This document shows positions 14,407 through 30,600 of a stretch of 64,000 nt of DNA, piece after piece (position 1 is the stretch's first letter; each line of letters opens with the position of its first letter). The notes under the pieces are model-generated. The model saw only the letters and a program-made list of their open reading frames with translations. It did not search any database and was not told where the DNA came from. The stretch is from Blautia schinkii DSM 10518 (GTDB lineage: Bacteria; Bacillota; Clostridia; Lachnospirales; Lachnospiraceae): NCBI GenBank assembly GCA_000702025.1, contig JNKJ01000010.1, forward strand, positions 124,001-188,000, written 5' to 3'. Both the position numbers and the translations under genes were made by a program.

Positions 14407-16215
14407 TTATTGACTGCCATCACGGCTTTTCAGAATCCGCCATAGGGTGCTTCGGCTGATGCCGAGCCGCTTGGCGGTTTTTTCTTTGCTCATGTTTTCC
14501 TGCTCCAGGACTGTGCGGATGATATCATAATTAATCTCATCGAGAGTTCTGTCCAGGTTAAAAGGTATCTGTTTCTGTACCTGCCAGGGGTGCGCCGGCT
14601 GTTCCTTTTTTAGGATGTCTGTGACACTCTCCTTGGTGATGTAAGAGGATTTTGTGATTACGGCCAGTTCTTTAAGAATCCTGTGGAATTGATCCAGGTT
14701 GTGATTCCAGGGGAAGTTCTGTATAGCAACCAGAGCGTCGGCCTCAAATCCGATGATCTGTTTTCCTAAGGAGGCGTTCAGCTGGTTCAGATAGAGGGCG
14801 CTGATGCTGGGGATATCGTCTTTCCGGCTGCGCAGGGGCTCTAGATGCAGCGTGAGGCAATTGAGCTGGTTAGTGAGATAACTGCATACAGGAGAGTTCA
14901 TGGCATTGACTCCGGGGGTCTCTACGTAGGAGAAAATAAGCCGGTTACGCTTCAGCACATTGCTCTGCTCAAAATAGGAAAACAGGCGGTCAAGCTGAGT
15001 ATTATTCAGTTTTTCCATTCCTTTCAGATGAATGGTGGTATGAACTGTGTTTAACGGTGAGTTATCATTATCCAGCAAGGCGGCCCAGCGCTTTTCATTA
15101 AGGAGCCCGCAGTTGATCATATAGTAGGGACCGTTTTGGTAAGGCCCCTGTTCATAAATCAGAGAAGCAGCCTTATCCTTTCCGGTACCCACCTCTCCGA
15201 GGATCAGCACAGGAAACGTGGTGGCAGCATAATCCTCGATAAAGCTTCTTGTTTTTCCGATATAAATGGCACTGTTATAATAATTGCGGAAATCCTCCGG
15301 GTCTGCAGCAGGCTTGTTGAAAATGGCAATGCTGTTGTCTGTATCCGAAAATAGAGCCTGTTTTTTTGTAATCGTGATGATGGTATATTTCTGCTCTTCG
15401 TAGTACACATGATGGTTGGACAGGTTTAAGATTGTCCGGGAATATTTAATGTCTAAGCGGAAATATGGCTGTTTCAGGAAATCCTGTAAATGCTCCTCCA
15501 TAGTATCGGCTAGCGCTGCGCGGAAGTTCTCCTGGGCCAGGTCGTCTACTGTGGAGTACCAGAGCTTTCCGTCCGGGTCATAAATAAGAAAATCTTCTTC
15601 CCGGTCTGTGAGTATCGTCTGAAATAATTCTTTCTGTTTATAGATACGCTGTGAAGATTTTACTAATTTCACAGCTTCGTTTAAAGCTGTTTCAATACTT
15701 TCTGTACCCGAGGAAATCAATATGGAATTCATGCCAAGCTGGGCTGCTGTGGTGGAACCTATCATGTCACAGATGATAAGACCGTAGCCCTGTTTTTTTA
15801 GCCTGGATAGAGTGGAGTATGCATCCTCAGTTTTCTCAAATGTGAAAATATCAATTTTATACTGCAGCAGGTCGCATAAAAGTTTAGCGCAGTTTGTTAT
15901 GCTGGGGAAACCGGCTATGGCCATCTTGTCCGAATAATTTTCTGCCATTTTGATGGCGCGCAGTACGTCATAGACAGAGATAGCTGTCTCCACCACAGGA
16001 ATCTCCCCACTTGAACGGATTAAATCTGCCGTACCTCCTCGGGACAGTATGACATCATAGTTCTGGTGCTCTAATGTTTTTGCGATTTGAAGTCCTGTGG
16101 ACAGGTTACCTACACGAACAGTGACATCCAGGTCCTCTCTCTGCTGGGCGATTGCCAGAATGGTTTCTGCCATGCCTTCATAGGGGGCAATTGCTAAAAT
16201 CTTTATTTTTCTCAT
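14407..16215 (-). CDS. PrpR-type regulator with degenerate sigma-54 activator domain
   Basis: The 602-residue protein begins with a PrpR N-terminal sensory domain (about 5-190; PrpR-N domains bind small acids in family members), then a PAS-like segment (about 195-290), an AAA+ region (about 315-480) and a Fis-type helix-turn-helix at the C-terminus (KEKTAKRLGISRSTLWRIL, 578-596). Walker A GEVGTGKD is at 340-347, but the GAFTGA loop that contacts sigma-54 is absent and Walker B is replaced by TIHLKGM (394-400). It therefore cannot be a normal sigma-54 activator, in line with the sigma-70 type promoter of the divergent TRAP operon it presumably controls. The start at 16215 follows GGGAGG. Confidence 0.82.
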   Translation of the reverse strand: MRKIKILAIAPYEGMAETILAIAQQREDLDVTVRVGNLSTGLQIAKTLEHQNYDVILSRGGTADLIRSSGEIPVVETAISVYDVLRAIKMAENYSDKMAIAGFPSITNCAKLLCDLLQYKIDIFTFEKTEDAYSTLSRLKKQGYGLIICDMIGSTTAAQLGMNSILISSGTESIETALNEAVKLVKSSQRIYKQKELFQTILTDREEDFLIYDPDGKLWYSTVDDLAQENFRAALADTMEEHLQDFLKQPYFRLDIKYSRTILNLSNHHVYYEEQKYTIITITKKQALFSDTDNSIAIFNKPAADPEDFRNYYNSAIYIGKTRSFIEDYAATTFPVLILGEVGTGKDKAASLIYEQGPYQNGPYYMINCGLLNEKRWAALLDNDNSPLNTVHTTIHLKGMEKLNNTQLDRLFSYFEQSNVLKRNRLIFSYVETPGVNAMNSPVCSYLTNQLNCLTLHLEPLRSRKDDIPSISALYLNQLNASLGKQIIGFEADALVAIQNFPWNHNLDQFHRILKELAVITKSSYITKESVTDILKKEQPAHPWQVQKQIPFNLDRTLDEINYDIIRTVLEQENMSKEKTAKRLGISRSTLWRILKSRDGSQ

Positions 16216-16503: not shown

Positions 16504-17511
16504 ATGGCAAAGAAATCAGTAGCAATGGTATTAGCAACAGTAATGGCAGTATCAATGGGTGTTGCGGGGGCAAGTACGGTTCAGGCGGATGCAGAGTATG
16601 TGATCAAACTGTGTTATGAAAACAATGATGGAGACCCGATTGATAATGGATGTGACAAATGGGCAGAGCTTGTAAAAGAAAAAACAGACGGCGCGGTGGA
16701 AATCCAAATCTATCCCAGTTCACAATTAGGTGCGAAAGCCGACCTAATTGAGATGATGCTTATGGGACAGAATGTGGCAACTATTGCAGACGGTTCTTAT
16801 CTTATGGACTATGTACCTGATTTCGGCGTGGTTATGGGACCTTATCTTTTTGACGAATGGGATCAGATGTACAAGCTTACCGGAAGCGACTGGTGGGCGG
16901 AACAGTCTGCTAAACTGGAAGATGAGGGATTGAAAATTGTATCAAAGAATTGGATTTATGGGGACAGGCAGCTTCTTACAAAGGATCCGATTGAAAGCCT
17001 GGCAGACTTAAAAGACTTAAAGATCAGAGTTCCCAATAATGATATTTCTGTAAAAATGTTCAATCTTTTGGGTGCAGCTTCTACACCAATGGCACTTTCA
17101 GAGGTTTATACATCTCTGAGCCAGGGCGTGGTAGATGGTGTGGAGAATCCTCTTACAACTTTATGGAACAACAATTTCCAGGAAGTCTGCAAGCATTTGA
17201 CCATGACCGGACATCAGATGACCTTCAGTAACTTTATTGTTGGTAAAGATTTCTTTGATACTATCCCGGAGGAATACCAGAAGGCTATTATGGAAGCGGG
17301 AGATGAAGCAGCAGAGTATAACAATGAGCTGTACAAAGAGGAGACGGAAGAGCTTTTGGGAAAATTCGAAGAAGCGGGCGTGACTGTTCATGAGCTTTCG
17401 GACCTTGATGATTTTAAAGCGGCAGTACAGGAATTATATCAGCAGTATGAAGACGAAGGAACCTGGACAGCAGGAACCTATGATACCATTCAGAAAATCA
17501 TAAACGAATAG
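16504..17511 (+). CDS. dctP: TRAP transporter solute-binding protein DctP
   Basis: The 335-residue extracytoplasmic protein has a signal peptide (about 1-28) followed by a DctP fold; the block LKIRVPNNDISVKMFNLLGA and the later TPMALSEVYTSLSQGVVDGVEN contain the family's conserved arginine and asparagine region that binds the substrate carboxylate. It delivers an organic acid, probably a sugar acid, to DctQM. The ATG at 16504 follows AGAGGAGG; an ATG at 16450 lies in the dyad site and lacks a ribosome-binding site. As with the sugar-binding protein above, no lipobox cysteine is present (GVAGAS). Confidence 0.88.
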   Translation: MAKKSVAMVLATVMAVSMGVAGASTVQADAEYVIKLCYENNDGDPIDNGCDKWAELVKEKTDGAVEIQIYPSSQLGAKADLIEMMLMGQNVATIADGSYLMDYVPDFGVVMGPYLFDEWDQMYKLTGSDWWAEQSAKLEDEGLKIVSKNWIYGDRQLLTKDPIESLADLKDLKIRVPNNDISVKMFNLLGAASTPMALSEVYTSLSQGVVDGVENPLTTLWNNNFQEVCKHLTMTGHQMTFSNFIVGKDFFDTIPEEYQKAIMEAGDEAAEYNNELYKEETEELLGKFEEAGVTVHELSDLDDFKAAVQELYQQYEDEGTWTAGTYDTIQKIINE

Positions 17512-17529
17512 TTCTTAATTTATCGGTGA

Positions 17530-17550
17530 ATGGGAGGCATAACCTCCCAT
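17530..17550 (+). terminator. Small hairpin between dctP and dctQ
   Basis: ATGGGAGG (17530-17537) pairs with CCTCCCAT (17543-17550), loop CATAA. It lacks a proper U-run, so it probably stabilises or processes the dctP message or causes partial termination, giving more binding protein than membrane subunits. Confidence 0.5.
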
Positions 17551-17581
17551 TTCCTGATTGATTCTGGTAAGGAGGCCGGAC

Positions 17582-18064
17582 ATGAAAAAAGTAATAAGCA
17601 TAATAGAAAAATTGGATTTGTTTATTTCCAGTATTTCTTTGATCATTATTATCTCCATAACCGTAGCAGGCGTCATAGCGCGAAAATTCTTAGGTACTCC
17701 CATTGCCTGGCTGGAAGAAATTCAATTGTTCTTTTTTGTCTGGACTGTGTTTTTTGCGGGAAGTGTGGCATTTCGTACCGGGAATCATGTGGGGATTGAC
17801 ATTGTCGCAGAGCGCTTAAATCCAAAAACGCGCAAGGTGTTGGATGTCATTGTGTATATCATCACAATGTTGGTGATTCTGTACCTTTTTAAAGGTTCAC
17901 TGGATTTGCTCTCTGCAGTTACCAAAAAAGTGACTCCCTATTTTAAAATCTCTTATGTGTACATAGATGCGGCCGCACCTATTGGGTGTGTGCTGATGAT
18001 GCTCCAGTATACGATTTTAATCTGCAGAAAGCTGATGGGAAAAGAAGTAAAGGAGGAGGAATAA
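17582..18064 (+). CDS. dctQ: TRAP transporter small membrane subunit DctQ
   Basis: The 160-residue protein has four predicted membrane helices, and WLEEIQLFFFVWTVFFAGSV is typical of DctQ. It forms the transporter with DctM and receives substrate from DctP; uptake is driven by an ion gradient. The ATG at 17582 is preceded by AAGGAGG; the upstream ATG at 17558 is unlikely. It is separated from dctM by a single base. Confidence 0.88.
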   Translation: MKKVISIIEKLDLFISSISLIIIISITVAGVIARKFLGTPIAWLEEIQLFFFVWTVFFAGSVAFRTGNHVGIDIVAERLNPKTRKVLDVIVYIITMLVILYLFKGSLDLLSAVTKKVTPYFKISYVYIDAAAPIGCVLMMLQYTILICRKLMGKEVKEEE

Positions 18065-18065
18065 A

Positions 18066-19361
18066 ATGTCGCCGATTGCCATTGCAGCTATTATTTTACT
18101 AATTTCATTATTTGCAAATGTTCCGGTGTTTGCTGCGGTTTTAGGTTCATGTATTACCTATTTCCTTTTTAACCCGGAGGCTGGTATTACAGGAGCCTTA
18201 GCCATTCAGAGGGTGATCAGTGGTATGCAGTCAGTTCCTATGCTGGCTATTCCGTTTTTTGTGGCTACCGGTATCCTGATGAACTATTGCGGAATTACAG
18301 AGCGTATGCTCCGGTTCTGTAAAGTGCTGACTGGTCATATGGTGGGCGGTCTGGCACAGGTAAACATTGTACTGAGTACCTTGATGGGCGGTATGTCCGG
18401 TTCGTCTCTGGCAGATGCAGCCATGGAAGCCAAGATGCTGGTTCCTGAGATGGAAAAAAACGGATATGAGAGAAGCTTTTCTTCTGCTGTCACGGCAGCC
18501 TCATCCATTATCACACCTTTGATTCCGCCTGGAATCGCAGCCATCATCTATGGAAGCATTACAAACACTTCTATTGGAAAGCTGTTCGTTGCGGGAATCG
18601 TCCCTGCCATTCTGCTTTGTTTTGCTATGATGGTGATTGTACACTTTGTGGCAAAAAAGAAAGGGTATCCCAAGATTTATGATAAACGGGCCAGCGGAAG
18701 TGAACTTTGGGAAGCATTTAAACCAGCAGCGCTTCCATTATGTCTCCCGATTATTATTATTGGTGGTATTCGTCTGGGATTCTTCACTCCAACAGAGGCA
18801 GGAGCCATCGCTATTGTATATGCTTTAATTCTGGGACTGGGATATAAAGAATTAAAAGTAAAGCATATTATCCTCTGTTTAAAGGAAACGGTTGCCACCA
18901 CTTCTTCTATTATGCTGATCGTAGGAGCAGCTACTTGCTTTTCCTGGATTTTAACATGGGAAAATGTGCCTCAGAATCTTACTACTATGTTGATTTCTGT
19001 TTGCCACAACAAATATATCTTTTTATTGTTAGTCAATGTATTTCTTCTTATTGTGGGAATGTTTATCGAAGCAACAGCAGCTCAGATCGTTCTGGCTCCC
19101 ATGTTGGTACCGGTGGCTCTGGCCTTTGGTATAGACCCGGTGCAGTTTGGTATGGTATTTATTTTCAATATGGCGATTGGTTCTCTTACACCGCCAATGG
19201 GAAACCTGATGTTTGTTACCTGTGGTGTTACCAAATGTAAATCAGAGGAATTTATTAAGGCCAGTGTGCCATTTTATTTATTACTGTTTATAACCCTTAT
19301 GGCAATGACATATATACCATTTTTAACTACTTCACTGCCAAATCTTATGTATGGAGTTTAA
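18066..19361 (+). CDS. dctM: TRAP transporter large membrane subunit DctM
   Basis: The 431-residue protein has about twelve membrane segments and DctM signatures such as GGMSGSSLADAAMEAKMLVP and LTPPMGNLMFV. It is the transport subunit of the tripartite transporter. AGGAGG sits just before the ATG at 18066. A catabolic gene follows after 3 bp, so the transporter and the enzymes are one operon. Confidence 0.92.
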   Translation: MSPIAIAAIILLISLFANVPVFAAVLGSCITYFLFNPEAGITGALAIQRVISGMQSVPMLAIPFFVATGILMNYCGITERMLRFCKVLTGHMVGGLAQVNIVLSTLMGGMSGSSLADAAMEAKMLVPEMEKNGYERSFSSAVTAASSIITPLIPPGIAAIIYGSITNTSIGKLFVAGIVPAILLCFAMMVIVHFVAKKKGYPKIYDKRASGSELWEAFKPAALPLCLPIIIIGGIRLGFFTPTEAGAIAIVYALILGLGYKELKVKHIILCLKETVATTSSIMLIVGAATCFSWILTWENVPQNLTTMLISVCHNKYIFLLLVNVFLLIVGMFIEATAAQIVLAPMLVPVALAFGIDPVQFGMVFIFNMAIGSLTPPMGNLMFVTCGVTKCKSEEFIKASVPFYLLLFITLMAMTYIPFLTTSLPNLMYGV

Positions 19362-19364
19362 AAG

Positions 19365-20342
19365 ATGAAAAAGATTAGAACGGTTTTGGGAGATATTCCC
19401 GTGGAAGAGTTGGGAGTAACGGATTGTCATGACCATATCATACGCAGCGGAGGGCCGGAGGTAAAGCTTGATACAGCCTTTCTCATGGATGACGTGGACT
19501 GTGCAGCAGAAGAATTGGGACGTTTTTTGAAAGCAGGGGGTAAGACCATGGTGTGCATGGACCCTATTGGTTGTGGAAGAAATGTTTCTAAAATGCTGGA
19601 AGTAGCAGAGCGTTTCCGGGGAGAGGGACATATTCTTATGACAACGGGCTTTCACAAAGGTAGTAATTACTGTCCAAATACATCTTTTTTGGCCACCGTG
19701 GAGGTTAACAAGGTGGCTCAGATGATGATTCTTGAAATTGAAGAAGGAATGGACCTTCATAGCTATAACGGTCCTGTTGTAGAGCGGACAAAGGCAAAGG
19801 CAGGTCTGATCAAGGCAGGCACCAGTTACCGTCTGATAACCGGATTAGAGGAAAAAGCTCTGGCAGTGGCAGCTATTACTCAAAAGGAAACAGGATGTGC
19901 TATATCTATGCATACTGATTTTGGAACTATGGGAATGGAGATTTTGGATGCGATAGAAGCAAACGGAGGAAGTGCAGAAAAGACTGTGCTTTGCCATATG
20001 CAGAGGAACAGGGATAAATACTATTATCAAATGCTTCTGGATCGGGGAGTTAATATCTGCTTTGATGAGCCAAATAAGGCTGCTTACTGTAGTGATACAG
20101 AAATTGCAGAAGTGATCGGATGGCTTATAGACAAAGGATATTCACAACAACTGGTTCTTGGTATGGACGGAGGACGGCGTGAAGCCTTGGCTTCTTATAT
20201 GAAAACAGAGGGAAGGGCAAATGGGTTGGAATACCTTCTTACGCGTTTTGTCTCCATCTTGAAAAAAACAGGAATCACCCAGGAGACCATCGATACCATG
20301 CTCATTCATAATCCGGCCAGAATTTTTGCCATTGACGTATAA
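19365..20342 (+). CDS. Phosphotriesterase-family metal-dependent hydrolase, probable lactonase
   Basis: The 325-residue amidohydrolase-superfamily protein has the binuclear metal site of the phosphotriesterase family: HxH at 22-24 (DCHDHI), a candidate carbamylated lysine in KAGLIKAGT, His in SMHTDFG and in CHMQRN, and Asp in GMDGGRR. Relatives hydrolyse lactones, carboxylate esters or phosphorylated sugar lactones. In this operon it may open a sugar-acid lactone before or after phosphorylation; that substrate is inference. It begins 3 bp after dctM and has no clear ribosome-binding site, suggesting translational coupling. Confidence 0.8.
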   Translation: MKKIRTVLGDIPVEELGVTDCHDHIIRSGGPEVKLDTAFLMDDVDCAAEELGRFLKAGGKTMVCMDPIGCGRNVSKMLEVAERFRGEGHILMTTGFHKGSNYCPNTSFLATVEVNKVAQMMILEIEEGMDLHSYNGPVVERTKAKAGLIKAGTSYRLITGLEEKALAVAAITQKETGCAISMHTDFGTMGMEILDAIEANGGSAEKTVLCHMQRNRDKYYYQMLLDRGVNICFDEPNKAAYCSDTEIAEVIGWLIDKGYSQQLVLGMDGGRREALASYMKTEGRANGLEYLLTRFVSILKKTGITQETIDTMLIHNPARIFAIDV

Positions 20343-20355
20343 AGGAGGAACCAAC

Positions 20356-21510
20356 ATGGGATACCAATTGAAAGTCCCGCCCTGCGCTTACGCAGGTGCA
20401 GGCAGCATAGAGGCGGTGAAAGGAATCATAGCCAGGGAGCAGTCAAAAAGCATTCTGGTGTTTACGGATAAGGGAATTCGCAGCACAGGCTTATTGAACC
20501 CGCTCACCCACTGTCTTGATGAGATAGGTGTGCAGTATACAGTGATTGATGATTTAAAGCCGGAGCCGGCTTATACAGACGTAGAAGAGACTTTAAGACA
20601 GGCCCAAGTTGTGGAAAGTGATATTATCATTGCCCTGGGCGGTGGGAGTGTAATGGATGCCGCCAAACTGTGTTCTGTACTGATCAGAGCACCCTACACA
20701 ATCCAGAATCTGCTGGACGACCCGTCGCTGGCGAAAAAACAGATAAAAACAGTTATGATACCAACTACCTGCGGCACGGGCTCGGAGGCCACCTGTAACG
20801 CTATTGTGGCAATTCCTGAGGAACAGTCTAAGAAGGGAATTGTAAATGATGACATGATTCCGGATTATGTGATTCTGGACCCGGCAATGATCGCCGCATT
20901 GCCAAAATCCATCGTAGCGGCCACTGGAGTGGATGCCTTAGCCCATGTGGTAGAGTGTTATACTTCCAAAAAAGCAACCCCCTTTTCTGATACCTATGCT
21001 CTGGCCGGAGCCAGGTTGATTTTCCAAAACATCCGCAGGGCTTACGAAAACCCACAGGATGAGGAGGCGAAGGAGGCAATGATGCTGGGGGCCTTCTACG
21101 GAGGCGTGGCTATTACGGGAAGCGGAACCACGGCTGTCCATGCCCTTTCCTATCCTCTGGGAGGGAAATACCACATTCCCCACGGTGTTTCCAACGCCAT
21201 TCTCTTTGCCCACGTAATGGAGTTCAATCAAGATGCCTGCCAGGAGCGTCTGGCCGCACTGTGCGATGCTGTATGGCCTCATATGAGCCGGTCAGAGGAA
21301 GAAGCGAAGGCCCGGTATGTCATCGATGAGATTGCGGATATTGTGAAGGTCACAAATATCCCTACGGATTTAAAAGAATTTGGGGTAAAGAAGGATGATC
21401 TTGATTTTCTGGTAGAGGCAGGAAGCCGTCAGACCCGGCTTTTGGTAAACAATCGGAAGGAATTGTCCCTTGAGGATATACGGGAATTATATAAAAAAGT
21501 ACTAAAATAA
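20356..21510 (+). CDS. Iron-containing alcohol dehydrogenase family protein
   Basis: The 384-residue group III dehydrogenase has the NAD(P)-binding block IIALGGGSVMDAAKL near residue 95 and metal ligands in GVDALAHVVE, AVHALSYPLGG and IPHGVSNA. Such enzymes oxidise or reduce alcohols, or sugar acids and their semialdehydes. Its neighbours (DUF1537 kinase, PdxA2, sugar-acid transporter) suggest a hydroxy-acid or acid-sugar substrate. ATG 20356 follows AAAGGAGG; the frame is open 30 bp upstream into the previous gene, but no ribosome-binding site supports that. Confidence 0.82.
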   Translation: MGYQLKVPPCAYAGAGSIEAVKGIIAREQSKSILVFTDKGIRSTGLLNPLTHCLDEIGVQYTVIDDLKPEPAYTDVEETLRQAQVVESDIIIALGGGSVMDAAKLCSVLIRAPYTIQNLLDDPSLAKKQIKTVMIPTTCGTGSEATCNAIVAIPEEQSKKGIVNDDMIPDYVILDPAMIAALPKSIVAATGVDALAHVVECYTSKKATPFSDTYALAGARLIFQNIRRAYENPQDEEAKEAMMLGAFYGGVAITGSGTTAVHALSYPLGGKYHIPHGVSNAILFAHVMEFNQDACQERLAALCDAVWPHMSRSEEEAKARYVIDEIADIVKVTNIPTDLKEFGVKKDDLDFLVEAGSRQTRLLVNNRKELSLEDIRELYKKVLK

Positions 21511-21526
21511 AGCGAGGAGAAGCATT

Positions 21527-22558
21527 ATGAAGAAACCAATTTTGGGAATAACCATGGGGGATCCGGCCAGCGTCGGTCCGGAGATCACGGTGAAAGCCCT
21601 GGCTAATATAGAGATTTATAACAGATGCCGCCCCTTGGTGATCGGGGATGCACAGGTCATGGAAAAAGCCGTGGAGATTGTAGGCAGACAGGGACAGGTG
21701 GCTATTCATCCGGTAAAAACTGTAGAGGAGGCTCTTTTTCAGCCAGGTACCATTGATGTTTATGATATGGGCATCGTGGATATAGAAAAGCTGGAATATG
21801 GCAAGGTGTCCGAAATGGGCGGCGAGGCGGCTTTTCAGTATGTGAAAAAGGTGATCGAGCTGGCCATGGCCAAAGAGGTGGATGCCACAGTGACGAATGC
21901 CTTGAACAAAGAAGCTATTAATCTGGCCGGACATCACTACTCGGGCCATACAGAAATCTACGCAGATTTTACAGGTACAGATAAGTATACCATGCTTCTG
22001 GCTCATGAAAATCTCAGAGTGGTCCATGTGTCCACTCACGTATCTTTAAGAGAAGCCTGTGACCGTGTGAAAAAGCAGCGTGTGCTTGACGTAATCCGGA
22101 TTGCAAACGATGCCTGCAAGGCTTTAGGAATTCAGGAGCCTAAGGTAGGTGTGGCGGGACTGAACCCTCACTGTGGAGAAAACGGCCTGTTCGGAACCGA
22201 GGAAATCGAGGAGATTGCTCCCGCAGTTGCCCAGGCGCAGACGGAGGGAATCCAGGCTTTTGGTCCTGTGGCGCCGGACACGATTTTTTCAAAAGCGAGA
22301 GGCGGCTGGTTTGACATTGTAGTTGCCATGTACCACGATCAGGGGCATATCCCGCTGAAGGTGGTAGGATTTGTATATAATGAGGAGCAAAAGGAATGGA
22401 ATGCTGTGGCAGGAGTAAATATTACTCTGGGGCTGCCCATTATCCGTACCTCTGTGGATCACGGAACAGCATTCGGGCATGCGGGAAAAGGAAATGCAAA
22501 TGAGTTAAGTCTGCTCAATGCGATTGATTATGCCATTACCCTTGCCAATCATAAATAA
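21527..22558 (+). CDS. pdxA2: PdxA2-type 4-phospho-acid-sugar dehydrogenase
   Basis: The 343-residue protein matches 4-hydroxythreonine-4-phosphate dehydrogenase: GITMGDPASVGPEI at the N-terminus and metal-binding histidines in GHTEIYADFTG, MYHDQGHIPLK and RTSVDHGTAF. When PdxA homologues are paired with a DUF1537 kinase, the known role (shown for D-threonate and erythronate pathways) is oxidation and decarboxylation of a 4-phospho acid sugar to dihydroxyacetone phosphate and CO2, not vitamin B6 synthesis. No other pdx gene is nearby, so I prefer PdxA2. AGGAG precedes the ATG; the kinase gene follows after 11 bp. Confidence 0.85.
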   Translation: MKKPILGITMGDPASVGPEITVKALANIEIYNRCRPLVIGDAQVMEKAVEIVGRQGQVAIHPVKTVEEALFQPGTIDVYDMGIVDIEKLEYGKVSEMGGEAAFQYVKKVIELAMAKEVDATVTNALNKEAINLAGHHYSGHTEIYADFTGTDKYTMLLAHENLRVVHVSTHVSLREACDRVKKQRVLDVIRIANDACKALGIQEPKVGVAGLNPHCGENGLFGTEEIEEIAPAVAQAQTEGIQAFGPVAPDTIFSKARGGWFDIVVAMYHDQGHIPLKVVGFVYNEEQKEWNAVAGVNITLGLPIIRTSVDHGTAFGHAGKGNANELSLLNAIDYAITLANHK

Positions 22559-22569
22559 AGGCAGGTGAT

Positions 22570-23919
22570 ATGATGGTAAAACTGTTGATTGTGGCAGATG
22601 ATTTCACAGGTGCGCTGGACACCGGTATTCAATTTGCCAAACAAGGAATTGAAACACAGATTTTTACCAATGAGCTGACAGAGCGCACGGCAATCGCCCC
22701 TAATACACAGGTTCTGGTGGTGAATTCGGATACCCGGCATCTGTCCGGGGCGGAAGCGGGAAAAGTGACCGGAGATATTGTAAGCTGGGCTGTTCAAAGG
22801 GAAATACCTACTATTTATAAAAAGACAGACTCTGCCCTGAGGGGAAATATCGGCAGTGAACTGGAGGCGGCTCTTACAAAATCCGGGCAGCATACATTAT
22901 ATTTTATCCCGGCCCTTCCTGAGATGAACCGGGTGACGATTTCCGGAACACATTACATAGACGGGGTACCCCTGGAATACAGTATGTTCGGCAAGGATCC
23001 ATTTGAACCGGTGAGAAGCTCTTACATCCCTCGGATCATCAGTGAGCAGAGCCAAATTCCGGTGCGGTGTATCGAGGTGAGTGAGCCGATGCCAGACCCG
23101 GCATCAGACAAACAGATTTTTGTATTTGATATACAGACCAGGGAGGATATGCACAACCGGGTGAAAGAGCTAAGGGAAAAGAACTGTCTTACTTTGCTTG
23201 CCGGCTGTGCGGGTTTTGCGGCTTTCCTGCCCAAGGCTCTGGGACTGGAAGGGAGAAAGAGCGAAAAGCAAGTCAGAACGCAGGGGCTGTTTGTGGCCTG
23301 CGGAAGTTTAAACCCGATTACCAGGGAACAGGTGGAATACGCAGAGGCGGAAGGATATGTGAGAATCCGGCTTACACCGGAACAGAAGCTGATGCCATCT
23401 TATTATGATAAGGCAGTGGGCCGCAGCTTTCTTCACGACCTGTACGCTGTTTGTGAGGAGAATTCCAGGGTGATCATAGATACATTTGATGAAGAAACAG
23501 GTGAAAATACCATTGAATATGCAGATCGTCACGGAATTCCCAGAGATAAAATCCGTTTCTCCATTACCGCCTGCCATGGGAAGATACTTCGGTATCTGGC
23601 AGAACGTGGACTGCCTTACACCATGCTTATCACGGGGGGAGACACTTTGATGGGCTTTATGAAGGAAATGGGCTGCGGACAGCTCCATCCTGTATGTGAA
23701 ATCGCCCGAGGAGCGGTTCTGTCTAATCTGAAGTGGAGGGGAAAGACCATCCCGGTGATATCCAAGTCCGGGGGCTTTGGTGACAGGGAAGTGATGGTAA
23801 AGATTGGAGATCAGGTGATTGCGCAAGGAGGAAGAGAGAATGAAATTTGTAATGACCCAGGCAGTATGCCAGGAGGGGATGAAGCTGCTGGAGGGGAAAG
23901 CCGATATCTATGTGGCTGA
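22570..23919 (+). CDS. Four-carbon acid-sugar kinase family (DUF1537)
   Basis: The 449-residue protein shows both DUF1537 halves: N-terminal IVADDFTGALDTGIQFA and YKKTDSALRGNIGSE, and the C-terminal nucleotide-binding part with ITGGDTLMGFMKEMG and VISKSGGFGDRE. Family members phosphorylate D-threonate, L-threonate or D-erythronate at C4. It sits directly after pdxA2, the characterised partner. The C-terminus runs 80 nt into the next gene and adds residues not expected for the family after the SGGFGD block; a small frameshift could restore a stop at the next gene's ATGA. Specific substrate unknown. Confidence 0.85.
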   Translation: MMVKLLIVADDFTGALDTGIQFAKQGIETQIFTNELTERTAIAPNTQVLVVNSDTRHLSGAEAGKVTGDIVSWAVQREIPTIYKKTDSALRGNIGSELEAALTKSGQHTLYFIPALPEMNRVTISGTHYIDGVPLEYSMFGKDPFEPVRSSYIPRIISEQSQIPVRCIEVSEPMPDPASDKQIFVFDIQTREDMHNRVKELREKNCLTLLAGCAGFAAFLPKALGLEGRKSEKQVRTQGLFVACGSLNPITREQVEYAEAEGYVRIRLTPEQKLMPSYYDKAVGRSFLHDLYAVCEENSRVIIDTFDEETGENTIEYADRHGIPRDKIRFSITACHGKILRYLAERGLPYTMLITGGDTLMGFMKEMGCGQLHPVCEIARGAVLSNLKWRGKTIPVISKSGGFGDREVMVKIGDQVIAQGGRENEICNDPGSMPGGDEAAGGESRYLCG

Positions 23920-24832
23920 TGACAAGGACCCTAATAACTATCCGGAACAAATGCAGGATGCGGATGCTTTGATTGTGCGTATTGCCTCCTGTGACAGAAA
24001 TGTAATTGAAAACGCTTCGGCCTTGAAGGTTATCGGAAGGACGGGAGTGGGTTATGACAGCGTGGATGTAGAGGCAGCTACGGAGAGGGGAATCCCGGTG
24101 GTGATCACTCCGGGAGCTAATAACCGCTCGGTTGCCGAGCATGCAGTGGCTATGATGATGGCTATATCCAAAAATCTTACGGAAGCTCAGACAGAGATGA
24201 AGGCAGGCAACTGGAAAATCAGGGATGCCAAAAAAGCTTTTGAGGTTTTAGGAAAAAAGGTAGGCTTTATTGGTCTGGGAGCTATTGGGCGAGAGGCTCA
24301 GAAGATTTGCAGCGGGATTGGTATGAAAACAGCAGGCTATGATCCTTTTTTGTCCAGAGAGAGAATTGAGGGGCTGGGCTGTGAATACTACGAAAATTAT
24401 CGTCAGATGCTTAAGGAATGTGATTTTATTTCTGTCCATGTACCTCTGCTGGATTCCACGAGAGATATGATTGGTAAGGAAGAACTGGCATCGATGAAGT
24501 CCACGGCAGTTTTGATTAATTGTTCCAGAGGGGGTATTGTAAATGAACAGGCTCTTATAGAAGCCTTGAATGATGGCGTTATTGCAGGAGCCGGAACAGA
24601 TGTGTATGTGGAGGAGCCGCCAGCGCCGGACAGTCCGCTGCTCAATGCAAGGAACCTGCTTTGCAGTCCCCACAGCGCTGCCCAAACAAGAGAGGCAGTC
24701 ATCAATATGGCGCAGATGTGCGTGGAAGGATGCCTGGCTGTGCTCAGAGGGGAGAGGTGGCCCTATGTGGCAGACAAAAAGGTATACGAGCATCCCATCT
24801 GGCAGGAAAAGGCCAAAGCGAATGAAGAATAG
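23840..24832 (+). CDS. D-2-hydroxyacid dehydrogenase (SerA-like)
   Basis: The 330-residue protein has the Rossmann motif KVGFIGLGAIGREAQ (about residue 142) and the catalytic Arg, Glu and His in NCSRGGIVNE, VYVEEPPAP and CSPHSAAQT. It resembles phosphoglycerate dehydrogenase without the ACT domain; members reduce or oxidise 2-hydroxyacids such as glycerate, glyoxylate or sugar acids. ATG 23840 follows AAGGAGGAAGAG and lies inside the 3' end of the kinase frame. It probably handles an intermediate or side product of the operon's pathway, but the substrate is not visible. Confidence 0.85.
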   Translation: MKFVMTQAVCQEGMKLLEGKADIYVADDKDPNNYPEQMQDADALIVRIASCDRNVIENASALKVIGRTGVGYDSVDVEAATERGIPVVITPGANNRSVAEHAVAMMMAISKNLTEAQTEMKAGNWKIRDAKKAFEVLGKKVGFIGLGAIGREAQKICSGIGMKTAGYDPFLSRERIEGLGCEYYENYRQMLKECDFISVHVPLLDSTRDMIGKEELASMKSTAVLINCSRGGIVNEQALIEALNDGVIAGAGTDVYVEEPPAPDSPLLNARNLLCSPHSAAQTREAVINMAQMCVEGCLAVLRGERWPYVADKKVYEHPIWQEKAKANEE

Positions 24833-24855
24833 ACATGGATCAGGAGGAAGATAAA

Positions 24856-25755
24856 ATGATACAGGCAAAGGGAATTATTGCTGCTATGCAGACACCGATG
24901 TATGAGGACGGCAGCATCAATGAAGAGGAAATGAGAAGACAAATTGAACGCCAGATTCAGGCTGGTGTGGACGGGATTTTCTGTCTGGGGACAAACGGGG
25001 AATTTTATATCATGGATAAGGAAGAGAAAATCCGTGTTATGGAAATCTTTGTAGACCAGGCAAAGGGCAGAGTTCCGGTATATGCGGGCACCGGATGCGT
25101 GAGCACTAAGGATACCATTGAGCTGTCTGTGAGAGCGAAAGAAATTGGTGTTGATATTCTGTCTGTGATAACTCCTTATTTTGCAGCTTTGAATCAGGAC
25201 GAACTGTACACACATTATGCTGCGTTGGCAGAGGCTGTGGACCTTCCTATCGTAATGTACAACATTCCGGCAAGGACCGGAGCTGCCCTCTCCCCTGCCA
25301 CGGTAGGAAAGCTGGCCGCAAATTATAAAAATATAATCGGTGTAAAGGATTCCAGTGGGAACTTTAACAACATTCTCCAGTATATCGCCGAGACGAAGGA
25401 TACTCCTTGGTTTTCCGTGCTTTCCGGAAATGATGCGCTGATACTTTGGACGCTTCTCGCAGGAGGAAAAGGAGGGATTACTGCTATTGCCAATATTCTT
25501 CCGGAAATTATGGTGAGTATTTATAAGTATTGGCAGGAAGGAAATCTGGAGGCTGCAAAGGCGGCCCAGGAATCCATTGCCCCCATTCGAGACTGTTTTA
25601 AATACGGAAATCCTAATTCTATTGTAAAACGCGCAACTAATCTTATCGGCCAGCCGGTAGGCCCCTGCCGGGCTCCCTTTGGTATGGTGTCGGAGGCTGC
25701 TGATAAAGCCATTTTAGAAACGATTGATACGTACTATTCTCAATATAAAAAATAA
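24856..25755 (+). CDS. DapA-family Schiff-base aldolase/dehydratase
   Basis: The 299-residue class I aldolase-fold protein contains GTNGEFY near residue 46, the catalytic Tyr in MYNIPARTG and the Schiff-base Lys in IIGVKDSSGN. Enzymes of this family include dihydrodipicolinate synthase, N-acetylneuraminate lyase and 2-keto-3-deoxy-sugar-acid aldolases. The catabolic operon context argues for cleavage or dehydration of a 2-keto-3-deoxy acid to pyruvate rather than lysine synthesis. ATG 24856 follows AGGAGG at ideal spacing; an ATG at 24835 is upstream of that site. It is the last gene before a terminator. Confidence 0.82.
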   Translation: MIQAKGIIAAMQTPMYEDGSINEEEMRRQIERQIQAGVDGIFCLGTNGEFYIMDKEEKIRVMEIFVDQAKGRVPVYAGTGCVSTKDTIELSVRAKEIGVDILSVITPYFAALNQDELYTHYAALAEAVDLPIVMYNIPARTGAALSPATVGKLAANYKNIIGVKDSSGNFNNILQYIAETKDTPWFSVLSGNDALILWTLLAGGKGGITAIANILPEIMVSIYKYWQEGNLEAAKAAQESIAPIRDCFKYGNPNSIVKRATNLIGQPVGPCRAPFGMVSEAADKAILETIDTYYSQYKK

Positions 25756-25778: not shown

Positions 25779-25810
25779 ACGGTATAGTCATTTGTGGCTG
25801 TGCCGTTTTT
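25779..25810 (+). terminator. Intrinsic terminator of the acid-sugar operon
   Basis: ACGGTATAG (25779-25787) pairs with CTGTGCCGT (25798-25806) with G-U pairs, and is followed by a T-run to 25810. Confidence 0.7.
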
Positions 25811-27508: not shown

Positions 27509-27677
27509 ATGATGTAGTAAAGTTTACATATCATTATAATTACAGGGCTAAATGTCAATTGTATTTTAAGACAAAAAAGTAGCCAGTTATGCCTATGTTA
27601 TTGTAAAAATGATGTACTATGATAAAATTAGATTTAGCAGCAGTATGCTTTATAATTGTCGGGGGAGAGTGAAGAAA

Positions 27678-30600
27678 ATGAAAAAAAGAATAGTAGCGCT
27701 TATGTTGGCATTGATAATGATTATAGAACCTGTAAATATGGCTGGAGCAACAGAATTTACTAGTCAGGAGGAATATCAGGAAAATATTTTCAGTGATGCT
27801 GAAGATGAAACTTTGTTTTCTGATGGAGAAAGTGATAGCTCTTTCATGGATGGGAACATCCAAGAAGAGGCACAAGATGCAGAATCAGAGTATGTAGACA
27901 TTGGAAATCAACGACTCTTTTTTGATATTGTTTCAGAAACAGAGGAGGCACAGCCGATAAAGGTTTCAATAAATGAAATTAGAGATAATAGGGATAAAAA
28001 TGATGAGATTGCAGGTATGTTCTTTATACCGGATGCCTTTAGTATAAATGATGAGCAATATGAGGTAATTCAACTTCAAAGTACATTGTTTGAGGAAAGC
28101 CAGGTGGTAAAAAATATCTTTATACCTGATACGGTACAAAATATTGATGATACAGCATTTGGCAATAATAATAGTTTAACTATATTTTGCAACACTGGAA
28201 GTTACTGCGAAACATTTGCGCTGGAACATGGTTTAGCAGTTGTTACAGATTGTATTAGTATTGAAGCGCCAGATTCTGAACTAAGTTTAGGTAGTCAAAC
28301 AAAGATAAATATAAAGAAAAATATGGATTGGATACCTAACAATGAAAAAGTAGAATGGTCGGTATCTGATGCGACTGTTGCCGAAATAGATAATGAGGGT
28401 GTATTAAGTGCGCTGAAAGTTGGAAATGTGGAGGTGTGTGCTAATTTAGGCGGTGTCAATGCATCTTGTAAGATTCAAGTTTTTGAAGCTAATAAAGTGT
28501 TGGGAGAAATTAAGGAAATAAACTTAGATGGGGAGATAACTTATCAGAATCAGGGACAGATCTCGGATTTTATTTTAGAAGATGGTGTTATCAAAGGATA
28601 TAATGGTTCAGGTGGAGTAGTTGAGATACCATCAGAAATTGATGGAGTGACGGTAACTGCAATAGGTGAAGGGGCTTTTTCTGGAAATACTGCAATTACA
28701 GGAGTTACATTTCCGAAGGGTATTAATTCTATTGGAGCAAAAGCATTTTCAAACTGTACAGAACTCGGGGGTATTCTATCAATTCCACAAGGTGTAGTCA
28801 ATATAGAAAGGCAAGCATTTGCTCATTGTTATAAGATATCGCACTTGGATTTACCGGAGGGACTAGAAAAAATTGGAGAGGAAGCCTTTGATAGCAACAG
28901 GGGAATTGCTGGAGAACTTATTATCCCTGATACTGTAATCGAAATTGGTAGCTATGCATTCTGTGGATGTACCGGGGTGACGGGATTGAAACTTGGGAGT
29001 GGGCTGCTAAGGATAGGGAATGGTGCATTTCAATCTTGTGGAGCGAACGGCGAAGTTATAATCCCAGAGGGAATAGAAAAAATAGAAAGCAATACCTTCC
29101 AATTCATGTCAAATGTGGTATGTTTCGTGATAGGAAGTAACGTTAGGGATTTGGGATATCAGGCTTTTGACGATTGTAGAAGGGTTAAAAAGCTTGTGTT
29201 TCTTGGTAGTATCCCACCAGACAACCCTGGAAACCTTTATAGTATGTATAGTCTTGAGAGTGTACATGTGCCATCGGGGACTTATAGTGTATATAGTGAA
29301 CAATTCAATCACTATTTGCCTTCAGGAGCAAGAATTATAGAGGAAGGAAGTAATGGATGTCAGATAAAGAATAATGTGCTAATACTGTATTCAGGAGAGG
29401 AGACAGAAGTCGTAGTTCCAGATAATGTTAAGGCTATAGGAAAAGGGGCTTTCCAGAATAATCAAACTTTAAGGCGAGTTATTCTTCCAGAAACACTTGA
29501 GGAAATTCAGAAATATGCATTCAGTGGTTGTACGGCTTTGACAGAGGTAAGATTGCCGAAATTTCTTGAGGAAATTCATGAATATGCCTTTAATGGTTGT
29601 ACTGGTTTGACAGAGGTAGAGTTACCGGGAGGGCTTAAGGTAATCGAGAGAGATGCTTTCCATGGATGCGTGGAACTTGGAGGAACACTTTCAATTCCAG
29701 AAGGTGTTACGAGCATAGGAGACAGAGCTTTTTTAGAATGTCAGAAGCTATCTGGGCTGGAACTATCGGAGGGGTTGGTAGCAATAGGTAATAATGCCTT
29801 TCAAGCAAACAGTGGGATTACCGGAGAACTTGTTATCCCTGACACAGTAACGGAAGTTGGTGGCTATGCTTTTTCCGACTGTTCAGGATTGACCGGGCTG
29901 AAGCTTGGGACCGGGTTGCAGAAGATAGGGAGCGGAGCTTTTCAGGCTTGCGGTGGGGTGATTGGTGAGGTTATAATCCCGGAGGGGATAGAGAACATAG
30001 AGAGCTACGCTTTCCAATATATGTCAAAAGCAGAGCGCTTTGTAATAGGGAGTAGGGTAAAGGACCTAGGATACCAGGCGTTTAATGGGTGCAGTGGGAT
30101 AAAAGAACTGGAATTCCTCGTGAACATCCCTCCGGCCAGTCCGGTAAACCTGGCGTATATGTACAGCCTGGAACGGGTGTATGTGCCATCAGGGACATAC
30201 GGTGCATACAGTGAGCAGTTTAAGAGCAGCCTGCCTTCAGGAGCGCGTCTCATAGAGGTGGGGAGCAGTGGGTGCCAGGTGCAGGATGGCGTACTGGTAA
30301 TGTATGCAGGAGAAGAGACTGAGGTCACAGTGCCGGATGGAGTAAAGGTGATTGGCGAAGGGGCATTCCAGAATAATAAGTCTGTGGAACGTGTGGTGCT
30401 GCCGGAAGGCCTTGAGGAGATCCGAGCCTATGCGTTCAGCGGCTGTACGGCCCTTGCAGAGGTCAGCCTGCCGGAGGGGCTGAAGGTAATTGAACCGTAT
30501 GCATTCCATGAGTGCAGGGAACTCGGAGGCATCCTCATAATTCCCAAGGGAGTGACAAGTATAGGGGAAGGAGCGTTTTCTTCATGTCAGAAGCTGTCCG

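Follow-up and report, generated by a model that had tools for sequence, protein, structure and literature searches.

A widespread kinase-PdxA-aldolase gene set in Blautia schinkii and its possible role in the fermentation of a seven-carbon dicarboxylic sugar acid

The window analyzed here is a stretch of 64,000 nucleotides from the gut-type bacterium Blautia schinkii DSM 10518 (contig JNKJ01000010.1, positions 124,001 to 188,000). It contains an operon of nine genes on one strand, with a regulator gene divergent from them:

14407..16215, minus strand: PrpR_N-type transcription regulator, divergent (PrpR_N 182 bits; weak AAA match, HTH_8)
16504..17511, plus strand: DctP, TRAP solute-binding protein (Pfam DctP 266.7 bits; start assigned from the RBS, read by eye)
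17558..18064, plus strand: DctQ, TRAP small permease (Pfam DctQ 109.6 bits; alternative ATG at about 17582)
18066..19361, plus strand: DctM, TRAP large permease (Pfam DctM 388.4 bits; TIGR00786 over cut-off)
19365..20342, plus strand: PTE-family lactonase-like hydrolase (Pfam PTE 154.7 bits)
20356..21510, plus strand: iron-type alcohol dehydrogenase, Fe-ADH (Pfam Fe-ADH 144.5 bits, ADH_Fe_C 177.5 bits)
21527..22558, plus strand: PdxA (Pfam PdxA 359.1 bits)
22570..23919, plus strand: DUF1537 kinase (Pfam SBD_N 164.1 bits, NBD_C 64.7 bits)
23840..24832, plus strand: D-2-hydroxyacid dehydrogenase, PGDH-like, HADH (Pfam 2-Hacid_dh_C 194.7 bits)
24835..25755, plus strand: DapA/NAL-family class I aldolase (Pfam DHDPS 279.8 bits)
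25779..25806, plus strand: terminator-like hairpin with a T tail, 3' of DapA (such sites are no more numerous than in shuffled sequence)

The Pfam matches of all nine genes lie far above cut-off, and the spacings are short, with 1 nt between DctQ and DctM, 3 nt between DctM and PTE, 2 nt between HADH and DapA, and overlapping reading frames for kinase and HADH. The acid-sugar gene set that the initial annotation placed at 16504-25755 is thus confirmed. All three TRAP components are present together, and no sugar-acid dehydratase was found by Pfam among the nine genes. The divergent PrpR_N regulator, absent from that annotation, recurs in relatives, and a PrpR-like gene is found in most loci carrying the module described below. 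Searches for control sites did not rise clearly above background, giving 32 sigma-54 promoter matches with up to two mismatches against 34 by chance, 22 promoter-like sites against 17.8 in shuffles, and 10 terminator-like sites against 9.5. The order TRAP-PTE-FeADH-PdxA-kinase-HADH-DapA is shared with Petroclostridium sp. X23 (L080), where a second TRAP and an amidohydrolase are inserted, is kept in Sporofaciens musculi (L085), and holds in the contigs L072 and L077 up to the points at which these are cut.

In keeping with the initial annotation, the closest counterparts of the kinase and PdxA are D-threonate-type enzymes, though both score below the equivalog cut-offs. The kinase has both the SBD_N and NBD_C domains. 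Its best family is D-threonate kinase (NF047819, 203.1 bits, cut-off 450), compared with 88 bits for the 3-oxo-tetronate kinase model, and the same family ranks first for the five other module kinases scored. It is also first, with 56 bits, for a non-module kinase in the same genome (L043), so the ranking of kinases is weak. PdxA passes TIGR00557 pdxA (341.5 over 290.35) and scores 336.3 bits against D-threonate 4-phosphate dehydrogenase (PRK03371), below its cut-off of 583.

DapA passes TIGR00674 dapA with 220 bits (cut-off 206.15), and its second NCBIfam match is TIGR02313, the C7-dioate aldolase exception model. Its motifs are GTNGE, TPYF and YNIPARTG, rather than the GTTGE plus TPYY of the lysine type that are carried by the DapA-like proteins L159 and L160. 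The arginine of YN(I/M)P(A/M)R, which we take to be the carboxylate-binding arginine of DHDPS, is kept in 33 of the 34 aligned rows (four loci being counted twice). The sole row without it, L064, is a non-orthologue, and Escherichia coli YagE has leucine at this position.

The Fe-ADH scores best as a lactaldehyde reductase (271.3 bits, below the cut-off of 523), with 220.1 bits as a 4-hydroxybutyrate dehydrogenase (below 500), and its relatives are 49-75% identical in 30 of the 31 loci found. HADH matches the first 306 of the 525 positions of phosphoglycerate dehydrogenase TIGR01327, with 312 bits (below 454). The best NCBIfam match of the PTE is the phospho-furanose lactonase NF045706 (376.5 bits, below 630), presumably of the Mycoplasma agalactiae MAG_6390 type, and its best PDB matches are 3msr and 3ovg. 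Of 200 genomes of the family, 18 hold relatives of the PTE, with 28 matches between them, and no kinase or PdxA was found in the eight stretches that cover 9 of the 27 matches outside the window, so the PTE is a poor guide to the pathway. The predicted model of DctP has a mean pLDDT of 38 from the single sequence and 88.6 from a seven-row alignment. Its closest PDB chains are 4ovt and 4o8m, whose ligands we take to be L-fuconate and L-galactonate; we count these six-carbon aldonates against a C7 substrate.

We compared 50 loci chosen by similarity to the Fe-ADH, DapA or kinase, near-copies included (e.g. L067/L070 and L078/L087); 37 of them are core loci, a fraction that gives no unbiased rate because of this selection. 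DapA is present in 23 of the 26 Fe-ADH-selected loci with kinase and PdxA, and two of the three lacking it lie at contig ends. Conversely, kinase and PdxA adjoin DapA in 9 of 10 distant, phylum-level DapA-selected loci (the window's own excluded), and Fe-ADH is found in six of those nine. DapA accompanies kinase and PdxA in L114-L116 although Fe-ADH is absent, and in L092 kinase and DapA form a single frame of 729 aa. Kinase and PdxA occur without DapA in L052 and L054 (of six kinase-selected loci of the genus) and, with Fe-ADH, in L086, which has no DapA within 21 kb. HADH and DapA occur without kinase or PdxA in L117 and L153-L155. The initial annotation took the extra enzymes to set the operon apart, yet the Fe-ADH and DapA genes form part of a module that many Bacillota carry and that is also present at two Actinomycetota loci. 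Only the TRAP importer and the PTE, both accessories, are particular to the window's variant. Lactone entry, suggested by the initial annotation and in keeping with the nearest match to a sugar lactonase, is therefore a side feature.

The core loci differ in a further enzyme, with HADH in 17 of the 37, a BNR_2 protein in 10 and a flavoprotein in four, never together. Across all 50 loci HADH never lies beside either of the others; the chance of zero overlap is 1.7e-06, a figure that ignores relatedness. The three labels require 11 changes on a DapA tree of 36 rows, made from the core loci without L073, whose contig spans 5 kb, and L088, which shares its genome with L050, and with L071 added (DapA and flavoprotein, without kinase or PdxA in its short contig). 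The BNR_2 protein is a weak match to sialidases (best 3.6e-07), and esterases are found beside it.

We regard the chances as even that the operon imports and ferments a C7 dicarboxylic sugar acid of 2-oxo-3-deoxy type, whether as such or in a 2-hydroxy or lactone form, and we infer the reactions, their order and the substrate. The TRAP system would take up the acid, the PTE would open a lactone form, and HADH would form the C2 ketone where not already present. DapA would cleave between C3 and C4 to give pyruvate and 2,3-dihydroxy-4-oxobutanoate, which Fe-ADH would reduce to D-threonate at the expense of NADH. The kinase would convert this to 4-phospho-D-threonate, and PdxA would oxidize and decarboxylate the latter to dihydroxyacetone phosphate and CO2. 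As PdxA would return the NADH spent by Fe-ADH, the pair would be redox neutral. Given that PdxA removes the carboxylate, in a single pathway the aldolase would have to come before it, leaving an aldehyde acid of at least four carbons. The order aldolase, Fe-ADH, kinase, PdxA would therefore need as substrate a 2-oxo-3-deoxy dicarboxylate with seven or more carbons. The D-lyxo configuration is one of two among eight that yield D-threonate. Among the acids weighed were C6 aldarates, 4-hydroxy-2-oxoglutarate, KDG/KDP-type acids and Kdo; those with six carbons or fewer leave no four-carbon acid for kinase and PdxA. Among the points in favor are the arginine kept by DapA and the transporters: DctP, DASS/CitMHS, TctA or TAXI, which are of (di/tri)carboxylate type, lie within the stretch in 24 of the 37 core loci, and an MFS transporter in three. 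The loci with kinase and PdxA but no DapA (L086, L052 and L054) are counted against a linear C7 route.

To our knowledge, Dha, a rare pectin sugar, is made in plants only in rhamnogalacturonan II (RG-II). In one distant genus, kinase, PdxA and DapA lie 23-29 kb from a BT_1020-like gene, of Dha-hydrolase type. The RG-II-type island in its genome G803 also has a GH106-like protein, pectate lyases, GH31, and fucose-isomerase-like and transketolase genes; the BT_1020-like protein gives 320 bits with PF24067 and 483 bits with PDB 5mqr, and an island protein of about 638 aa gave only weak alpha-1,6-mannanase matches in a PDB profile search. Among 72 genomes from the class to which this genus belongs, strong BT_1020-like matches and a DapA of at least 77% identity occur in the same four, all of the genus, on the same contig in three. 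Against the proposed route we count that three Clostridia genomes with strong BT_1020-like matches have DapA proteins just 28-39% identical, that PF24067 was not found in the window's genome, and that no close Fe-ADH was found in G803, G774 or G702 of the island genus (best about 32%). Published sources describe RG-II as common in the human diet with 13 sugars (PMC12282258), Kdo and Dha as both among them (PMC12282258, PMC12168206), and a hydrolase that frees Dha (PMC6811678); no Dha-consuming route was found in the open literature searched. That the substrate is Dha itself falls somewhat short of an even chance. Slightly more tentatively still, the module could be the first candidate Dha catabolic pathway, comprising a Dha aldolase, a D-threuronate reductase, a D-threonate kinase and decarboxylase, and interchangeable entry enzymes that might be the 2-hydroxyacid dehydrogenase, the flavoprotein oxidase and the sialidase-like BNR_2 ketosidase. 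A further point against is that Dha itself would not require HADH, the flavoprotein, the PTE or the esterases beside BNR_2.

DtnK and PdxA2 by themselves constitute a known pathway. The operon might hold two parallel branches under one regulator, with kinase and PdxA acting on D-threonate or D-erythronate while HADH, DapA and Fe-ADH convert another acid to pyruvate and an aldehyde, and this to an alcohol, by KDG-like or KDP-like chemistry. The top score of Fe-ADH as lactaldehyde reductase would fit, as would the loci where either pair occurs alone. We think it unlikely, given the association of DapA with kinase and PdxA in 9 of 10 distant relatives, extending to loci lacking Fe-ADH, the fused kinase/DapA frame in one genome, and the lack of a dehydratase gene in the operon. 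The initial annotation had left a second branch and a longer acid cleaved to pyruvate as alternatives; the 9 of 10 and 23 of 26 associations better support the longer acid. An ordinary D-threonate/D-erythronate operon with dispensable accessories would agree with the resemblance of kinase and PdxA to D-threonate enzymes, and the PTE would then open D-threonolactone. It is improbable, as DapA (23 of 26) and Fe-ADH (6 of 9) are conserved about as well as the rest, across Bacillota and the two Actinomycetota loci. Equally improbable is a Kdo aldolase role for the RG-II-linked DapA (giving pyruvate and D-arabinose), with kinase and PdxA serving another RG-II sugar and the window's operon another ulosonic acid. 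The joint presence of Kdo and Dha in RG-II and the fucose-isomerase-like and transketolase genes of the island speak for it, but it leaves unexplained the DHDPS-like arginine, the tight kinase-PdxA-DapA order and the Fe-ADH partner elsewhere.

If the Dha proposal is true, it would fill a gap in Dha catabolism, name a substrate for a module of many gut Lachnospiraceae, provide a natural source of D-threonate for bacteria with D-threonate enzymes, and predict that pectin degraders and clostridia cross-feed. Even with another C7 acid as substrate, the sequence of steps can be tested directly.

The enzyme set is widespread yet apparently undescribed, and the operon would be a new variant of the DUF1537/PdxA2 pathways; in keeping with the initial annotation, no match to the full set was found in the partial library of literature searched. 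Zhang et al. are said to have described in 2016 the D-threonate pathway of DtnK and PdxA2, which shares the DUF1537 kinase, the PdxA-family dehydrogenase and the product dihydroxyacetone phosphate, but here aldolase and Fe-ADH would supply D-threonate from a longer acid. DapA shares with DHDPS, the lysine DapA, the fold family, the Schiff-base lysine motif and the arginine of YNxPxRT. It differs in GTNGE for GTTGE and TPYF for TPYY, and lysine-type rows separate in the tree, where the module side is supported only at 62/92. Like 4-hydroxy-2-oxoheptanedioate aldolase of the HpaI type, it is proposed to split a C7 2-oxo-4-hydroxy dicarboxylate, releasing pyruvate and leaving a C4 semialdehyde acid, but the substrate would bear two further hydroxyls; with the DapA-family model TIGR02313 it reaches 195 bits, below the 396.7 cut-off. 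The phospho-furanose lactonase is likewise a PTE-family lactonase and the top NCBIfam and PDB match, whereas the operon has no phospho-sugar step preceding the PTE. With the use of RG-II by Bacteroides thetaiotaomicron through the GH143 Dha hydrolase BT_1020 the link is the related kinase-PdxA-DapA set near a BT_1020-like gene in one genus; the window's genome, without the hydrolase, would instead scavenge the free acid.

The nine genes reported at 16504-25755 in the initial annotation are all present as described: a TRAP importer (DctP, DctQ, DctM), a phosphotriesterase-like lactonase (PTE), an Fe-type dehydrogenase (Fe-ADH), PdxA, a DUF1537 kinase, a D-2-hydroxyacid dehydrogenase (HADH) and DapA. 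A regulator gene lies beside them:

14407-16215, (-) strand, PrpR_N regulator, divergent from the operon

The match of the regulator to sigma-54 interaction models is weak (35 bits, covering 55 of 168 positions of Sigma54_activat but almost the full length of Sigma54_activ_2), and the frequency of sites resembling sigma-54 promoters does not exceed chance. This PrpR-like protein may not use sigma-54. A neighboring gene (27609-44699) encodes a secreted-looking protein of 5696 aa with leucine-rich-repeat-like, fibronectin-like and Ig-like repeats, assigned by eye. The genome (6.68 Mb in 65 contigs; the window is G000:C8:124001-188000) has three DUF1537 kinases including that of the operon, and no relative of the operon PdxA was found in the 19-kb stretch around either of the other two (L043 and L044). 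The operon kinase frame reaches ∼80 nt into the HADH gene (23840-23919), and its 449 aa exceed the 417 and 430 aa of its relatives in loci L049 and L087.

Relatives of the kinase, Fe-ADH and DapA all lead to neighborhoods that share this gene set. They are found in 7 of 60 genomes of the genus (kinase), 6 of 391 of the class (Fe-ADH) and 11 of 348 of the phylum (DapA), the window's own included in each case. PdxA, Fe-ADH and DapA lie beside the kinase in four of six kinase-selected loci of the genus (L049, L050, L051, L053); L052 and L054 have kinase and PdxA without DapA. All five class-level Fe-ADH neighborhoods contain kinase and PdxA, and four a DapA orthologue, the DapA-family protein of L064 being a non-orthologue (113 bits) that lacks the Arg motif discussed below. 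Kinase and PdxA also adjoin nine of ten phylum-level DapA relatives, six of them with Fe-ADH too; at L117 neither the pair nor Fe-ADH adjoins. A scan of named genomes gave 31 Fe-ADH loci, and Fe-ADH, PdxA, kinase and DapA occur together in 23, counting the fused frame of L092. Six of the other eight lie at contig ends and have little flanking sequence (L071, L077, L079, L081, L082, L083). At L086 the 21 kb covered contain no DapA, and L096, a 27% relative, lacks the whole core set. PdxA, kinase and DapA occur together in 37 of 50 tabulated loci. Among these core loci Fe-ADH is present in 34, HADH in 17, a sialidase-like protein (BNR_2) in 10, a fumarate-reductase/aspartate-oxidase-like flavoprotein in four, and PTE in four, only alongside HADH.

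Some loci differ in organization. In Anaerostipes hominis (L092, 12243-14432) kinase and DapA form one uninterrupted frame of 729 aa, either a true fusion or the loss of a stop between two genes. At L052 (2285-10293, genome G201) PdxA and kinase accompany a sugar-type ABC importer and a nickel-pincer isomerase, which NCBIfam places in group 22 (499 bits, cut-off 400), perhaps a tetronate epimerase route. L153-L155 (G1025-G1027) hold a distinct cluster of HADH and a DapA-family aldolase without kinase or PdxA, to which L154 adds an HpaI-like aldolase (by eye) and a TRAP importer.

The operon enzymes were compared with NCBIfam models. The kinase is closest to D-threonate kinase (203 bits, against 88 for 3-oxo-tetronate kinase), PdxA scores 336 bits to D-threonate 4-phosphate dehydrogenase, PTE 376 bits to phospho-furanose lactonase, and DapA 220 bits to dapA and 195 bits to a C7-dioate aldolase exception model. 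Curated cut-offs are passed only for TIGR00557 (pdxA) and TIGR00674 (dapA); the other scores fall below them, so no operon enzyme can be named by rule.

The order of reactions narrows the possible substrates. PdxA-type enzymes oxidize and decarboxylate, leaving a product that is no longer an acid cleavable by DapA. In a single pathway DapA must therefore act first, and the aldehyde that it releases must still be an acid and have four or more carbons. This would be OHC-CHOH-CHOH-COOH if the kinase substrate is a tetronate, and Fe-ADH would reduce it to D-threonate, a role like that of 4-hydroxybutyrate dehydrogenase acting for succinate semialdehyde. All DapA rows but that of L064 carry the Arg of the YNxPxR motif (33 of 34, with four loci entered twice). 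In DHDPS the corresponding Arg binds the carboxylate of aspartate semialdehyde; E. coli YagE has Leu at the position. Lysine-type DapA rows also have the Arg, as expected, so it argues for an acidic aldehyde and not for a C7 substrate specifically. Transporters vary between loci. DctP, DASS/CitMHS, TctA or TAXI, families known for di- or tricarboxylates, occur in the stretches of 24 of 37 core loci, and MFS transporters at L065, L112 and L113. Among the eight configurations of 3-deoxy-hept-2-ulosaric acid, D-lyxo and D-xylo alone give D-threonate. Dha, a rare seven-carbon acid sugar of rhamnogalacturonan II (RG-II), has the D-lyxo configuration according to PMC12168206. D-threonate kinase is the best family for the window kinase and for all five other module kinases tested (182-308 bits); L043, a non-module kinase, ranks it first too (56 bits), which makes this ranking a weak indication. 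We consider a linear C7-dicarboxylate pathway to be evenly balanced, and propose Dha tentatively, as a substrate somewhat short of probable.

HADH, the flavoprotein and BNR_2 never occur together at one locus. Random placement on the 37 core loci would give this with a probability of 1.7e-06, ignoring relatedness. On the DapA tree (36 rows) the labels HADH, flavoprotein, BNR_2 and none require 11 changes against a minimum of three, so the swap occurred repeatedly. Six core loci lack HADH, flavoprotein and BNR_2 alike: L073 (5 kb), L084, L090 and the island loci L114-L116. Each of these proteins could produce a C2 ketone: HADH by oxidizing a 2-hydroxy acid with NAD, the flavoprotein (best models L-aspartate oxidase or TfrA, 258-271 bits, under cut-offs) by flavin-dependent oxidation of an acid with a 2-hydroxy or 2-amino group, and BNR_2, a sialidase-like propeller, by 2-ketoside hydrolysis. 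HADH in the window might instead form lactate; we favor entry oxidation because the three are mutually exclusive. Esterases are carried by the BNR_2-type loci L069, L075, L078, L087, L091 and L094; at the 10 BNR_2 loci they are feruloyl-esterase-like in four and PHB-depolymerase-like in six. Dha as substrate leaves them unexplained.

A link to RG-II comes from a distant genus. Kinase, PdxA and DapA lie together in genomes G803 (L115), G774 (L114) and G702 (L116); in G999 (L151) PdxA and DapA lie at the start of a contig. In G803 they are surrounded by pectate lyases, GH31 and GH42 proteins, a fucosidase and a GH106-like protein (38 bits against a cut-off of 29). Another protein there aligns with the N-terminal portion of NF049877 (beta-glucuronidase/beta-L-arabinofuranosidase; presumably BT0996) at 156 bits, far under the cut-off of 1800. 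Farther along is a PF24067 (Beta-prop_BT_1020) protein (320 bits). A profile built from two rows, this protein and its counterpart in G702, hits PDB 5mqr with 483 bits (residues 19-610). The founding protein of GH143 is presumably BT_1020, in its N-terminal half; the family was created for a B. thetaiotaomicron Dha hydrolase, according to PMC6811678. The end of DapA and the PF24067 gene are ∼25, 23 and 29 kb apart in G803, G702 and G999, respectively, and lie on separate contigs in G774. In that class (72 genomes), PF24067 matches that are strong (E < 1e-90) and DapA of at least 77% identity coincide in the same four. The fifth listed genus member, G875, has neither, and G993 has a weak PF24067 match without a close DapA. 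In another six genomes, G1024 among them, DapA is 42-52% identical, and the stretches examined for the other five (L153-L157) contain no kinase or PdxA. The coincidence is confined to one genus and so may be a single evolutionary event. Other observations count against the link. Three of 391 genomes of the window's class have strong PF24067, with a fourth below the cut-off, and DapA in those three is only 28-39% identical. PF24067 is absent from the window's genome, and no close Fe-ADH was found in G803, G774 or G702, so in the island the reduction would fall to a different enzyme, for which the SDR at L115 15966-16766 is a possible candidate. Also present in the island (L118, L119, L115; G803:C7) are two pairs of split transketolase genes (the first identified by Pfam, the second by reading plus one NCBIfam match), a URO-D protein and, by eye, a transaldolase-like gene; these might serve routes for apiose and methyl-ether sugars.

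Substrate entry can be compared with solved structures. The nearest to DctP are 4ovt (Z 39.0) and 4o8m (Z 38.8), followed by relatives that include several sialic-acid receptors. Dha is a sialic acid analogue, yet from this likeness we cannot tell the ligand. The best solved relative of PTE is 3msr, presumably a lactonase of pentonolactone 5-phosphates; such a substrate, like a Dha lactone, would combine a gamma-lactone ring with a further anionic group. Among the open-literature matches listed (including PMC6353982, PMC12168206, PMC6811678 and PMC12282258), neither a catabolic route for Dha nor the operon's gene set is described, which does not show that none has been published. Set beside the known systems, the operon is a variant of the DUF1537/PdxA2 acid-sugar pathways that is both conserved and modular and has an aldolase at its front end.
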